Shown piece after piece: positions 26,912-34,077 of a stretch of DNA of 64,000 nucleotides. The position numbers and the translations under genes are program-made. Every line of letters begins with the position of its first letter. The first letter of the stretch is position 1. Below the pieces are notes generated by a model. The model worked only from the letters and a program-made list of their open reading frames with translations, was not told the DNA's origin and made no database searches. The stretch spans positions 1 to 64,000 of the forward strand of contig CANJLD010000002.1 in NCBI GenBank assembly GCA_947475165.1. The letters run 5' to 3'. The stretch comes from Bacteroidota bacterium. GTDB taxonomy: Bacteria; Bacteroidota; Bacteroidia; Chitinophagales; LD1.

Positions 26912-27508
26912 TTATTTCTTACGGGCTTCAAGCTTCGCAATTACATCTTGCAGCTTAAAACCTTTTGCTTGTAGCAGTATTAAATAATGAAAAAGCAAAT
27001 CAGCTGATTCATTCAGAAATAAATCATTGTTGTTGTCTTTTGATTCTATAACCATTTCTATGGCTTCTTCGCCTACTTTTTGTGCAACCTTATTAATGCC
27101 TTCGGCAAAAAGTTTTGAGGTGTATGAATCTTGAGTAGGAGAATTTTTTCGTGTTTCAATGGTTTGTTCCAGTTCTGTTAAAAAATCAAGATTCCCTTTA
27201 TTGTTTTTTTCTTTCCAACAAGTATCGGCACCGGTATGGCAAACAGAGCCAACCGGATTTGCTTTGATAAGAAGTGTATCATTATCGCAATCCATCTGAA
27301 TTGAAACTACATTCAGATAGTTGCCGCTTTCCTCACCTTTTGTCCATAACCGATTTTTTGTTCGGCTGAAAAAAGTAACGCGCTTTTCTTTTTGCGTTTT
27401 TTGAAAAGCTTCATCATTCATAAAGCCCAGCATCAAAACTTTATTGGTTGTAGCATCCTGAATAATAGCAGGAACGAGTCCGTTCTCTTTGGCGAAATCT
27501 ATCTTCAT
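26912..27508 (-). CDS. hisIE: Bifunctional phosphoribosyl-AMP cyclohydrolase / phosphoribosyl-ATP pyrophosphatase
   Basis: [54 protein letters not shown] and [13 protein letters not shown]. Confidence 0.97.
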
Positions 27509-28257
27509 AATCTTACGGTTATTGCTTTTTGTTGTAAATAGTTTTTCAAATCATTGATTCCAATTTCTTTAAAATGAAAAATGCTGGCGGCTAAAGCCGC
27601 ATCTGCTTTACCATAGGTAAAAGTATCATAGAAATGCTCCATTGCTCCCGCACCACCCGAGGCAATAACGGGAATATTTACAGTTTCTGAAAGTTGTCGC
27701 AAAGCATCATTCGCAAAACCATTTTTTGTCCCATCATGATTCATAGAGGTAAAGAGAATTTCACCGGCTCCAAGTTGTTCTGCTTCTTTCGCCCATTCAA
27801 ACAAATCAAGTTCGGTTTCTAATCTTCCTCCGTTTAAATACACTTTCCAATTCGCTGTCTGTTTCGCGTCTATAGCCAACACCAAACATTGACTCCCAAA
27901 TTTCTCAGCAATGTGCGAAATCAATTCTGGATTTCGCACCGCTGCCGAATTCAAAGAAATTTTATCTGCCCCGCTTTGAAGTAAAGCATAGACGTCTTCT
28001 ACAGTCGAAATTCCACCGCCAACGGTAAAAGGAATGTTGATGGTGGCTGCTATCCGTTCAACTAATGCGACAAGTGTTTTTCTTTTTTCGTGTGTAGCTG
28101 TGATATCTAGAAACACTAATTCATCAGCACCTTCTCCACTATAAATTTTTGCAAGTTCCACTGGGTCACCGGCATCCCGCAAACTTTCAAAGTTCACGCC
28201 CTTAACGGTACGGCCGTTTTTAATATCTAAACATGGAATAACTCGTTTGGCTAACAC
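27505..28257 (-). CDS. hisF: Imidazole glycerol phosphate synthase subunit HisF
   Basis: [54 protein letters not shown]. Confidence 0.98.
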
Positions 28258-28974
28258 TCAATTGAACTTTGATAAATCTGCTAATGAAATTCTTCCTTCA
28301 TAAATCGCCTTACCGATAATTGCTCCATGTAAACCGGTTTCGCTCAAAACATTCAATTCATTTAAATCACTTACTCCTCCACTGGCAATTAATTTTAGTG
28401 CTGGAAATTGTTGCAGAATTTTTTTGTAGAGAGAAATCGAACAGCCTTGCAACATTCCATCTTTTGCAATATCAGTGCAGATGACATACTGAATTCCATG
28501 AGCCACATAATCTTTCAAAAATCCGAACAGATTGATGATGCTGTTTTCTTGCCATCCACTCACCGCTATCATTTCATCTTTTACATCGGCTCCTAGAATA
28601 ATTTTTTCTGCTCCGTATTTATCAAGCCAGCACAAAACCGTGTCGCGTGACTTTACAGCAATACTTCCGGCAGTTATTTTCTGTGCACCTGAATCGAAAG
28701 CAATTTCTATATCTTCATCTGTTTTAATTCCTCCGCCAAAATCTATTTTGAGTTTTGTTTGCGAACTGATTGTCTGCAAAGTCTTATGATTAACAATATG
28801 ACTTGCCTTTGCTCCGTCTAAATCTACCAAATGCAATCGTTGTAAACCGGCTGCTTCAAATTGTTTGGCAACCTCCAATGGATTCTCATTGTAAATAATT
28901 TTCTGCGCATAATCGCCCTGGGAAAGACGCACACATTTTCCGTCTATAATATCTATGGCAGGAATTATTTCCAT
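28258..28974 (-). CDS. hisA: ProFAR isomerase HisA
   Basis: [56 protein letters not shown]. Confidence 0.97.
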
Positions 28975-29525
28975 TATGCTTCAATAAAGTTTTTCAAAAA
29001 ATCTTCTCCGGCCTGGCCACTTTTTTCAGGATGAAATTGAACTGCAGAAAAATTCTCTTTTTGAATAGCCGCAGAAAATTGGGTGATGTAGTTGCAGGTC
29101 ATTGTGGTGAATTCATTTTGAGGCACATAATAGCTGTGAACAAAATAATACCAGTCATCGTTGCCATCTGTTTTGTTCCAGCCTATATGCGGCACTTTCA
29201 GCTTTGGTTCAAATAGCTTTACACTTTCATTGAAAATTCCCAGACAATCTACATTGCCTTCTTCACTGAACTTACACATTAATTGCATACCCAAACAAAT
29301 ACCAAGCACCGGTTGCTTTAGTTGGGGAATTAAAATATCTAAACCCTTTTTTCTCAACACATCCATTGCCGCTTTTGCATGGCCAACTCCAGGGAAAATA
29401 ATTTTATCGGCAGAAAGAATTTCCTCTTTACTGTATGATAAAACCGGAGTAATGCCTAATCGCTGAAAAGCAAACTTTACCGATTGCGTATTACCTGCAC
29501 CGTAATTGATAATAACTAGTTTCAT
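28974..29525 (-). CDS. hisH: Imidazole glycerol phosphate synthase subunit HisH
   Basis: [45 protein letters not shown]. Confidence 0.97.
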
Positions 29526-30658
29526 TAAAGCACTCCTTTAGTAGAAGGAGGTTGAAGGTTATTCAAATCACGCTTTACCGCCATTTTAATTGCCTTGGCA
29601 AATGCCTTAAAAATGGCTTCAATTTTATGGTGTTCGTTTTCACCTTCTGCTTTAATGTTCAAATTGCATTTGCCAGCATCGCTGAACGACTTAAAGAAAT
29701 GAAAGAACATTTCGGTAGGAACATCCCCCACTTTCTCGCGCTTAAATTCCGCCTTCCATTCAATCCAATTTCTTCCGCCAAAATCAATGGCTACTTGTGC
29801 CAAAGCATCGTCCATCGGCAAACAAAATCCATAACGTTCAAGACCTTTTTTATTTCCAAGGGCCAATGCAAAAGCTTCTCCGAGCGTTATGGCGGTGTCT
29901 TCTATAGTATGATGTTCGTCAATTTGCAAATCGCCTTTGGCAGAAATCTTTAAATCAATATTTCCGTGCTTTGCAATTTGTTCCAGCATGTGGTTTAAAA
30001 AATTGAGGCCGGTAGAGATTTCTGCTTTCCCAGTTCCATCAAGATTTAGTTCAACCATTATTTGCGTCTCCTTCGTGTTTCTTGAATGAGTCGCTTGTCG
30101 CGGTCCGCCTTTTAAGTAATTATAAATCTGTTCCCATTCGCGGGTTTCAAGAGCGATAGATTTTTTCAGTTCATCCTGATTGTCTTTAACTTCAGCAGCT
30201 CCAAGACCTCTTCCATCGTTTAAGTAAAAACATTTAGCACCCAAATTTTTTGCCAACTGCACATCGGTAATTCTATCGCCAATTACAAATGAGTTTTTCA
30301 AATCGAAGTCAGCAGAGAAATATTTAGTGAGCATACCTGTTCCCGGCTTTCGGGTAGGTAAGTTTTCGTGCGGAAAAGATTTATCAATGTGCGCATCTAC
30401 AAAATGAATACCCTCATCATGGAATGTTTTGACAATAAAATTTTGCACCGGCCAAAAATCTTCTTCCAAAAGTTCAGGAGTTCCTAAACCATCCTGATTA
30501 GTGACCATCACTAATTCATAATCTAACTCGCGGGCAATTTTACCAAGCCAGTAAAATAATTGCGGATAGAAAACCACCTTTTCAAATTTTTCAATTTTGA
30601 AATCATCGGTTTCTAAAATTAGGGTGCCATCACGGTCAATGAATAAAACTTTTTTCAT
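29525..30658 (-). CDS. hisB: Bifunctional histidinol-phosphatase / imidazoleglycerol-phosphate dehydratase HisB
   Basis: HAD motif [12 protein letters not shown] plus [33 protein letters not shown]. Confidence 0.97.
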
Positions 30659-31704
30659 GCTGTAAATTTAGTAAGCGCATTTAGCAAGGCGCGGTTTTCA
30701 GATTCTGTTCCTACCGTTATTCTTAAACATCCTTCGCATAAGGCTACTTTACTTCTATCGCGCACAATAATACCGAGCGATACAAGATAGTCATAGGTAG
30801 CCTGTGCATTTTTCACTTTTACTAAAATGAAATTTGCATCGGAAACATAAATTTTTTCAACTAAAGAGTGTTGCTGAAGTGCATCTTCCAACTTTTTCCT
30901 TTCAGCAATAGCCTCGAGAATACGCTGATTCACCCAGTCAATATTATCAAGTGCTGTCATTGCAAGTTGCTGTGTGGCCTGGTTGATATTGTATGGAGGC
31001 TTCACCTTGTTCATGTAATCAACAATAATTTGTGGTGCGAAAGCCATACCTAAGCGTAAAGCCGCCAAGCCCCATGCTTTGGAGAAGGTTTGCAACACCA
31101 CCACGTTTTCATATTCGGTAAGAAGGCGAATAGCAGATTTTTGTTTGGAGTAATTGATGTATGCTTCGTCAATAACTACAATGCCCGGAAATTTCTGAAT
31201 CAGTAATTCCACATCATCGGCATCAAAAGAATTAGCTGTCGGATTATTGGGGGAACAGATGAAAAGCAATTTTGAATGTTTGTCGAAGCCTTCTAAAATT
31301 CGTTCTACATCTAACTCAAAAGAAGGAAGCAGGTTTATCCTCCGAACTTCTACATCATTGATGTTTGCACTCACTTCATACATACCATAAGTTGGCGGAC
31401 ATATAATTATGTTATCCGTTTTCGGTTCACAGAAAATGCGGAACAACACATCAATAGCTTCATCGCTGCCATTACCCAAAAAAATATTTTGAGATGGAAC
31501 ACCCTTTATGCTGCTGATTTTTTCTTTAAGTTTTTTCTGTAGCGGGTCAGGATAACGGTTATAGTTTCCCGTAAGCGGAGAACCAAAACTATTTTCGTTA
31601 GCATCTAAAAAAACAGAAGCCTCTCCTTTAAATTCATCGCGGGCAGATGAATAAGGCTTTAAGTTCAGAACATTCTGACGAATAATAGTTTCTACATCAA
31701 ACAT
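30655..31704 (-). CDS. hisC: Histidinol-phosphate aminotransferase
   Basis: [45 protein letters not shown]. Confidence 0.97.
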
Positions 31705-33017
31705 TACTTGTTCTTTAATTTTTTCAAACGAATGCTCACCGCGTTTTTATGCGCTGACAAATTTTCGGCTTCTGCCATTACCTCAATCACACTTCCTATA
31801 TTCTTAATTCCCTTTGGTGAAATTTTTTGATAGGTAACTTTCTTTACAAAAGAATCTAACGATACCCCCCCGTAAACCCTTGCGTAACCATTAGTTGGCA
31901 AAGTGTGATTGGTGCCGCTGGCATAATCTCCGGCACTTTCGGGGGTATAATTGCCAATGAAAACCGAACCTGCATTCACCACATTTTTTAAAAAATAGTC
32001 TTCATCCTTTACTGCTAATATTAAATGCTCCGGGGCGTATTGATTTATAATTTCAACCGCTTCTAATTTATTCTTAACCAAAATTATTTTTGAATGTTGA
32101 AGGGCTTGCGCAGCAATATCTTTACGCGGCAATTCCTTTAACTGACGAGCAACTTCTACTTGCACTTTTGCAATCAAGTTTTCCTTTAACGCAACAAATA
32201 TTACCTGCGAATCGGCACCATGCTCTGCTTGGGAAAGCAAATCGGCAGCCACAAAAGAAGGCTCGCAACTTTCATCGCCCACTACTAATACTTCCGATGG
32301 CCCAGCGGGCATATCAATAGCCACACCTTCTTTTTGTATTAACTGCTTTGCAACCGTTACATATTGGTTTCCCGGTCCAAAAATCTTTTCAACTTTCGTA
32401 ATAGCCTTTGTTCCGTAAGCCATGGCAGCTATTGCTTGCGCTCCGCCTGTTTTATAAATTTCATGAACACCGCAAAGATGCGCAGCAAACAAAATAGCGG
32501 GATGAATTTCCCCTTCTTTATTGGGTGGCGTGCACAGAATAATTCGTCCACAGCAGGCAATACTTGCAGGAGCTGCTAACATTAAAACAGTGGAAAACAA
32601 AGGTGCGCTACCTCCTGGGATATACAAGCCAATATTTTGAATAGCACGGCTTTCTCGCCAGCACACAACACCTTTAGTGGTTTCAATTTTCTTCTCTTTC
32701 AGCTCTTGTACCTGATGAAATTTTTTGATGTTACGATAGGCCGTTTCAATTGCCTGCTTTAACTTCTTATCAACTAAACTTTGCGCTTCTTTTATCTCTC
32801 TTTCTGTTACACGCAATTCTTTCACTATTGCTTTATCAAACTTCAGCGCATAACTTCTTAATGCAACATCTCCATTCTTCTTCACCTCATTCAGAATTTG
32901 CTGCACTATTTTTTCAATAGCCGTGCTATCTGCCGAAGGTCGCTTCAACAATTTTTCTAAATCTTTTTGCTTTGGGTATTTTACAATTTGCATTTCTGTA
33001 TTTGTATTAAGTCTCAC
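31704..33017 (-). CDS. hisD: Histidinol dehydrogenase
   Basis: GLYIPGGSAPLFSTVLMLAAPASIA, GPGNQYVTVAKQLIQKEGVAIDMPAGPSEVLV, NAGSVFIGNYTPESAGDYASGTNHTLPT. Confidence 0.98.
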   Translation of the reverse strand: MRLNTNTEMQIVKYPKQKDLEKLLKRPSADSTAIEKIVQQILNEVKKNGDVALRSYALKFDKAIVKELRVTEREIKEAQSLVDKKLKQAIETAYRNIKKFHQVQELKEKKIETTKGVVCWRESRAIQNIGLYIPGGSAPLFSTVLMLAAPASIACCGRIILCTPPNKEGEIHPAILFAAHLCGVHEIYKTGGAQAIAAMAYGTKAITKVEKIFGPGNQYVTVAKQLIQKEGVAIDMPAGPSEVLVVGDESCEPSFVAADLLSQAEHGADSQVIFVALKENLIAKVQVEVARQLKELPRKDIAAQALQHSKIILVKNKLEAVEIINQYAPEHLILAVKDEDYFLKNVVNAGSVFIGNYTPESAGDYASGTNHTLPTNGYARVYGGVSLDSFVKKVTYQKISPKGIKNIGSVIEVMAEAENLSAHKNAVSIRLKKLKNK

Positions 33018-33042: not shown

Positions 33043-33906
33043 TTACATCACCATTTTTTCAATCGGCACCACTAAAATTCCTTGCGCGCCCAATTTTTTT
33101 AATCCATCAATCTTATCCCAAAATTCGTTTTCGCTAATAACCGAATGCAACGAACTCCAACCTTCTTCTGCCAAAGGAAGTATGGTTGGGCTTTTCATTC
33201 CCGGCAACAAAGCAATTATCTCCTGCAATTTATTGTTGGGGGCGTTTAGCAAAATGTATTTGTTGTTGCGTGCTGACAATACCGCATTTATTCGAAACAA
33301 TAATTTATCGAACAAGTTCTTTGCCTCTGCACTTAAATTTTTACCGGTTATTAAAACAGCTTCCGACTGAAACAAAACTTCCACTTCTTTCAATCCATTT
33401 TTAAAAAGAGTAGAACCGGTGCTTACTATATCGCAAATGCCATCTGCTAAACCAATGTTCGGAGCAATTTCTACCGAGCCTGAAATTTCATGAATCTCGG
33501 CACTCAAATTATTCTTCTTCAAAAATTGTTGAAGTGTATTCGGATAAGAAGTAGCCAGTTTCTTTCCATCAAAATAATTCAACCCGTTATAGTTTTCGTT
33601 TTTAGGTATGGCCAACGAAACTTTGCATTTACTAAAACCCAAACGTTGAATCACTTTTACTTCATGCGGCTTCTCAATCAACAGGTTTTCGCCAATAATG
33701 GCAATGTCTGCCACGCCATCTTCTATGTATTGCGGAATATCGCTGTTGCGCAAAAAGAAAAGTTCCAACGGAAAATTTCTTGCGGTTACTTTCAATTGGT
33801 CTTCACCATTATCAATGGCAATGCCACAATCTTTAATCAGCTTGAGCGAATCTTCGTTCAACCTGCCCGATTTTTGAATAGCTATTCTTAATTTTTTCTC
33901 TGCCAT
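33043..33906 (-). CDS. hisG: ATP phosphoribosyltransferase (long form)
   Basis: KLRIAIQKSGRLNEDSLKLIKDCGI, LGLADGICDIVSTGSTL-like region, C-terminal regulatory domain. Confidence 0.96.
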   Translation of the reverse strand: MAEKKLRIAIQKSGRLNEDSLKLIKDCGIAIDNGEDQLKVTARNFPLELFFLRNSDIPQYIEDGVADIAIIGENLLIEKPHEVKVIQRLGFSKCKVSLAIPKNENYNGLNYFDGKKLATSYPNTLQQFLKKNNLSAEIHEISGSVEIAPNIGLADGICDIVSTGSTLFKNGLKEVEVLFQSEAVLITGKNLSAEAKNLFDKLLFRINAVLSARNNKYILLNAPNNKLQEIIALLPGMKSPTILPLAEEGWSSLHSVISENEFWDKIDGLKKLGAQGILVVPIEKMVM

Positions 33907-33920
33907 AATTATTTAATTAA

Positions 33921-33949
33921 AAAGCCCGCTGATGGTTACAGCGGGCTTT
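33921..33949 (-). terminator. his leader attenuator terminator
   Basis: Minus strand AAAGCCCGCTG-taaccat-CAGCGGGCTTT followed by TT, 11-bp perfect stem between leader peptide and hisG. Confidence 0.9.
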
Positions 33950-33976
33950 CATTTATTTTTTGCTTGCACAAAAACA

Positions 33977-34030
33977 TCAATTACCTCGCTGTGCGATGAT
34001 TGAATGATGGTGATGTGTAATACGAATCAT
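33977..34030 (-). CDS. hisL: Histidine operon leader peptide (MIRITHHHHSIIAQRGN)
   Basis: Minus-strand ATG ATT CGT ATT ACA CAT CAC CAT CAT TCA ATC ATC GCA CAG CGA GGT AAT TGA: four consecutive His codons just upstream of a terminator and hisG. Not in the supplied ORF track because it is short. Confidence 0.9.
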   Translation of the reverse strand: MIRITHHHHSIIAQRGN

Positions 34031-34046
34031 TGTTTAAATTATGTGC

Positions 34047-34077
34047 CGAAGATAAAAGCAGGTTTTATAAAACCAAA
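34047..34077 (-). promoter_or_regulatory. Candidate his operon promoter
   Basis: Minus strand TTTG (34077-34074), 19 nt spacer, TATCTTCG (34054-34047), one mismatch to TTTG-N19-TAnnTTTG. Confidence 0.65.

Follow-up and report, generated by a model that had tools for sequence, protein, structure and literature searches.

The 64,000-nucleotide stretch of DNA analyzed here (the window) carries a histidine (his) operon from a member of the Bacteroidota, raising the question of how expression of this operon is controlled. Ribosome-mediated attenuation by means of His-rich leader peptides controls the his operons of enterobacteria, and the first-pass annotation of the window proposed that the same mechanism is used in this Bacteroidota-type genome. 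Our analysis supports that proposal, with a leader, a terminator and a competing antiterminator that are kept and covary across many Bacteroidia families. Based on sequence and on predicted RNA folds, we consider it very likely that the region upstream of hisG attenuates transcription of the his operon by a ribosome-mediated (leader-peptide) mechanism.

The elements of such an attenuator can be read from the minus strand of the window. A Bacteroidota-type promoter spans positions 34047 to 34077 and consists of TTTG (34077-34074), a 19-nt spacer and TATCTTCG (34054-34047). A strict version of this pattern, TTTG-N18-20-TAnnTT(T/C)G, precedes 54 of 165 related leaders within 80 nt, as compared to 0.12% of shuffled sequences. 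Downstream of the promoter lies the leader ORF, MIRITHHHHSIIAQRGN, whose 17 codons run from an ATG at 34030 to a TGA stop codon at 33977 and which occupies the same place as the leaders of related genomes. As expected for a leader-peptide attenuator, this short ORF, standing before a his operon, contains a run of codons for the operon's own amino acid: the putative regulatory codons CAT CAC CAT CAT (34004-34015) specify four His residues, and the His run is kept in relatives. The first gene of the operon, hisG, has its ATG at 33906 and extends to 33043 (TIGR00070, 183.4 bits against a cut-off of 75.75). It is followed by hisD, hisC, a bifunctional hisB, hisH, hisA, hisF and hisIE, which are contiguous or overlapping at positions 26912 to 33017 of the same strand according to NCBIfam matches and ORF coordinates. 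The promoter described in the first-pass annotation is therefore right to the base, its 17-codon ORF with four His codons is where it was placed, and the eight NCBIfam assignments agree with its hisGDCBHAF(IE) operon. Leader, terminator and hisG stand in the order and at the spacing that an attenuator needs, and the 136-nt leader has a predicted folding energy of -34.5 kcal/mol, as compared to -19.6 kcal/mol for shuffled sequences (z = -4.7).

The predicted intrinsic terminator occupies positions 33919 to 33950, between the leader and the first structural gene as in known leader-peptide attenuators, and consists of a stem (33950-33939 paired with 33931-33920), a 7-nt loop and a U run, with an energy of -20.3 kcal/mol. 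We count 12 predicted pairs in this GC-rich stem, which had been described earlier as 11 bp. By eye, no convincing antiterminator pairing had been identified; that part of the first-pass annotation no longer stands, as the end of the leader ORF is predicted to pair with the 5' arm of the terminator. One strand of this antiterminator, ACAGCG(A)GGT with a bulged A (33983-33992), lies over leader codons 13-16 and is supported by duplex energy and by the fold of RNA with a stalled ribosome. The other, GCCCGCTGT (33938-33946), is part of the terminator 5' arm and is predicted to pair with either the antiterminator strand or the terminator 3' arm; its homologous columns covary in relatives. The two strands are joined by a predicted internal hairpin, TTTTTGT-GCAA-GCAAAAA (33957-33974). 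Folding the region for mutually exclusive structures, as the annotation had suggested, thus yields an antiterminator, ACAGCG(A)GGU (33992-33983) paired with GCCCGCUGU (33946-33938), that competes with the terminator for the same 5' arm. The duplex has an energy of -14.2 kcal/mol, and 2% of shuffled sequences do as well.

The position of the antiterminator strand relative to the leader codons is suited to control by a ribosome. The strand begins 11 nt past the last His codon, which means that a ribosome stalled there need not cover it, and the strand ends 3 nt before the stop codon, so that a ribosome at the stop codon would cover it and the terminator would no longer be excluded. Folding of the RNA left accessible by a ribosome stalled on the His codons gave the antiterminator helix over the internal hairpin at -16.3 to -16.4 kcal/mol. 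When the ribosome is instead placed on the stop codon, it covers the strand, an outcome set by the masking that we imposed, with an assumed footprint of 14 nt. In predicted folds of the completed transcript the terminator always forms, indicating that switching must be kinetic. A 1:2 (pause) helix is not favored in window RNA that lacks the 3' terminator arm, and the antiterminator is predicted to form in that RNA even when it is untranslated. Thus, the window has no clear default-off helix of the kind found in the classical four-segment design. Relatives differ from the window in this respect, with fewer than 3 antiterminator pairs expected in the untranslated RNA of approximately 62% of them.

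These features suggest how the switch might operate. Transcription would start a short distance before the leader ORF, with a ribosome trailing RNA polymerase through the leader. With sufficient charged tRNA-His, the ribosome would reach the stop codon and cover ACAGCGAGGU, in which case the terminator arm GCCCGCUG would pair with its 3' partner and transcription would end before hisG. With scarce charged tRNA-His, the ribosome would stall on the four His codons and ACAGCGAGGU would be available for pairing with GCCCGCUGU, enclosing the internal hairpin, such that no terminator would form and the operon would be transcribed. We infer the real start site, translation of the leader, its coupling to transcription and the response to histidine, and we assume that transcription and translation are coupled in Bacteroidota.

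If the leader is functional, the His-rich ORF should be kept upstream of hisG in related genomes, and the first-pass annotation had named its absence there as grounds for rejecting the idea. We collected 181 hisG upstream loci from whole-genome draws (same genus, family and order) and from 80 named genomes, and we scored as a leader any ORF with an ATG start, 8-45 codons and at least 3 His within 6 residues that lies within 420 nt of hisG. Such a leader is present at 166 of the 181 Bacteroidota loci, as compared to 0.8% of shuffled upstream regions, although the sampling favors genomes whose hisG resembles that of the window and the count is therefore not a phylum-wide frequency. The same test applied to any other amino acid is positive at no more than 33 of the 181 loci. 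Of the 15 negatives in this first set, at least two (L006 and L023) do have a His-containing leader, with TTG as the start codon. A class-wide draw from other families produced leaders at 23 of 28 further loci by script and at one more on recheck, and two of the 28 appear to have a leader with a GTG start.

Several individual loci deserve mention. At L002 (G001:C9), hisG is 99% identical to that of the window, and no leader is present in the unrelated DNA upstream of it; the operon may have moved, the leader may have been lost, or the assembly may contain a join. At L023, the leader and terminator are located approximately 200-320 nt upstream of hisG, and a run of near-identical CCGCAAGCAAAATTTC repeats separates the terminator from the gene. 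In G362 (C1:2873507-2874357), hisG is found in two overlapping pieces, the second of which has three stop codons, possibly reflecting a pseudogene or a sequencing error. The his operon itself is patchy within the genus: hisG is present in 10 of 17 other genomes (G001-G017) and absent in 7, some of which are approximately 98-99% complete.

The terminator and the competing pairing are kept together with the leader. Among the 166 related loci with a leader, 152 have a terminator of -8 kcal/mol or lower located between the leader and hisG. Pairing between the leader end and the 5' arm of its own terminator has a mean energy of -13.6 kcal/mol in a set of 147 distinct loci, as compared to -8.6 kcal/mol for shuffled leader ends and -9.8 kcal/mol for the leader ends of other genomes; the paired Wilcoxon test against shuffles gives p = 3e-24, a value that serves only as a guide since these sequences are related and hence not independent. 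When synonymous codons are substituted at the leader end, the mean pairing weakens to -9.6 kcal/mol from the native value, indicating that the codons at the leader end are constrained as RNA and not only as peptide. For the window alone this test is not significant, with 8.5% of recodings as good as the native sequence. When a ribosome is placed on the first His codon, 91-95% of loci are predicted to form an antiterminator, as defined by 3-5 or more expected pairs.

Covariation points in the same direction. Since MAFFT shifts the clade of the window relative to Flavobacteriia by approximately four columns, we counted covariation on Flavobacteriia only. In 35 aligned flavobacterial relatives, 86.8% of the cells of the antiterminator are paired, as compared to no more than 49.5% when the pairing is slid, and 97.1% of the cells of the terminator are paired, as compared to no more than 56% when slid. 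The two structures share one 5' arm in these relatives and each has four double-changed pairs; column 106 shows compensatory changes with both of its alternative partners. The antiterminator pairs vary by clade and the scheme is constant. With clades named from hisG identity to named genomes, the window type is ACAGCG(A)GGU:GCCCGCUGU, the Flavobacteriaceae type is CUCARGCG(A)GGU:ACCCGUUUGAG, the Chitinophagaceae type is GGUARGCC:GGCUUACC, and Saprospiraceae-like genomes have longer GGCAAAUGGU:ACCAUUUGCC types.

We weighed these results against other explanations of the locus. The leader peptide could exert its control through translation of hisG or through Rho, with the hairpin adding only polarity. 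The terminator ends 13 nt before the hisG ATG and could therefore also mask the start region, and some Bacteroidia his leaders have no terminator at all, indicating that another route exists in the class. The stem in the window, however, has a U run and a competing antiterminator with conserved pairing, and a terminator of this kind accompanies the large majority of leaders in relatives (152 of 166), which leaves this explanation very improbable. Even less likely, and already contradicted by the data, is a reading of the stem as an ordinary terminator serving the upstream exonuclease gene, with the His run as a chance ORF. Although that same-strand gene reaches to 34080, which puts its end just 3 bp upstream of the promoter, both the promoter and the His-rich ORF sit between it and the stem, the ORF recurs at 166 of the 181 sampled loci rather than at the 0.8% expected by chance, and its 3' end covaries with the terminator.

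The reading of the region as a transcription attenuator receives further support from a covariance model, R1, that was built from 35 flavobacterial leaders, none of which belongs to the clade of the window, and that recovers this very element. R1 matches the window leader over positions 1-122 of 122 with 51 bits (E = 3.2e-7 over the 3.88-Mb genome), and in a search of the whole genome this is the single strong match. The second-best match (G000:C3:56809-56892; 28.8 bits, E 0.019) covers only the 3' part of the model and is probably an unrelated terminator. Given that R1 matches the window leader at full length, the leaders of Flavobacteriia and of the window's clade are very probably homologous as judged by sequence; by analogy of position and pairing scheme, homology with the Chitinophagaceae and Saprospiraceae leader types is likely. 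No Rfam family reaches its curated cut-off in the leader region. The best sub-threshold scores there are those of Thr_leader (27.8 of 55 bits) and, slightly lower, the enterobacterial RF00514 His_leader (26.6 of 49 bits), and these reflect general leader shape only. Control of the operon by a T-box or metabolite-binding riboswitch is extremely unlikely, even though such elements govern the his genes of Firmicutes and Actinobacteria (PMC9413887). Every Rfam family stays below its cut-off in the leader region, the T-box has no match at the gathering threshold in the window and none in the leader region at E up to 10, and the conserved feature is a translated His run, which would be superfluous for a riboswitch.

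A second kind of his leader is found at 15 loci from several Bacteroidia families (L018, L021, L022, L091, L095, L100, L211, L213, L214, L216-L219, L224 and L225), approximately 90-190 nt upstream of hisG. Its peptide ends in HHSS, HHSK, HHRR or similar, with a few looser cases, and these 15 loci have no intrinsic terminator before hisG. A hairpin of 5-7 bp, which starts at the last His codons or directly behind them, has the stop codon within its loop or close to it, as in CACTCC-AAGTA-GGAGTG, ATTCCTC-TTAAC-GAGGAAT and ATCGCC-GATA-GGCGAT. Each of the 15 hairpins is predicted to be more stable than at least 95% of shuffled sequences, and their paired bases vary by clade. One finely balanced proposal is that the Bacteroidia his leaders form one ancient RNA family, absent from Rfam and kept in most of the class despite sequence drift, with a side branch that has shed its terminator and relies on a hairpin around the leader stop codon. 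If so, translation would closely trail RNA polymerase in Bacteroidota; ribosomes of this phylum largely work without Shine-Dalgarno sites.

The window's element, like enterobacterial hisL (RF00514), places three features before hisG: a short leader peptide containing a run of His, a terminator with a U run, and an antiterminator that competes with it; the operons also share the gene order hisGDC[NB]HAF[IE]. The window's element differs from hisL in having four His codons rather than seven and an antiterminator strand located within the leader ORF, at its 3' end. Work reviewed in PMC8305728 includes a proposal that the hisGDC[NB]HAF[IE] operon was transferred. We considered common descent with E. 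coli hisL by such a transfer and did not adopt it, as the Bacteroidota model gives E. coli hisL only 20.4 bits (E 0.048). E. coli hisL (L226 2052-2064) and a Crocinitomicaceae leader (L072) do share TCAGGCGATGTGT after the His codons; this segment is seemingly unpaired with the E. coli terminator, and the sharing is probably compatible with chance.

Bacteroidetes/Chlorobi were reportedly among the groups with candidate attenuators described by Vitreschak and colleagues (2004). The Bacteroid-trp motif, a likely trp attenuator, differs from the his leader and has no match in the window. That motif (RF01692; PMC2864571) is an RNA motif of Bacteroidetes and, judging by its name, is connected with trp genes. 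In 2010, leader-peptide systems were stated to be known only in Proteobacteria and Actinobacteria, to which Firmicutes were then added (PMC2965389). Another paper covers the his attenuators of Proteobacteria and of some Firmicutes, with no mention of Bacteroidetes (PMC9413887). Its Firmicutes examples (Bacillus cereus group, Peptostreptococcaceae, Erysipelotrichales) resemble the window leader in having a leader peptide with three to five consecutive His codons, a terminator and an antiterminator, a likeness at the level of description, and they belong to another phylum and were termed independent acquisitions (PMC9413887). Transcript mapping in Flavobacterium psychrophilum revealed a structured 5' element of hisG, the same gene in the same phylum as the window, that is conserved in other Flavobacteriaceae and has no Rfam match, along with strong clues to leader-peptide attenuation upstream of amino-acid operons (PMC9723704). 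In the parts of that report available to us, the hisG element is only listed, with no hisG mechanism and no reach beyond Flavobacteriaceae (PMC9723704); it very probably belongs to the same family as the window leader. Thus, the mechanism is a known one, and others have already noted it in Bacteroidota; what is new here is the specific antiterminator, the class-wide breadth, the covariation and a working covariance model.

Other attenuators in the same genome were considered for comparison and set aside. In this genome (99.7% complete), no match was found for ilvD (PF00920) or pheA (PF00800), and none over the cut-off for trpE (PF04715), leaving nothing to compare. Apparently, the organism has kept a full his operon and lacks other amino-acid pathways.

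While his attenuators are usually presented as proteobacterial, with a few cases in Firmicutes, in Bacteroidia they are apparently the rule. The Bacteroidia his leader has a conserved, covarying RNA core for which there is no Rfam family, and R1 could be submitted as a new one. The leader also offers a natural reporter for transcription-translation coupling in Bacteroidota. The mechanism is a textbook one, yet it has been kept throughout a large bacterial class in which it has hardly been described, and it probably lets the cell transcribe its his genes only when histidine is short.
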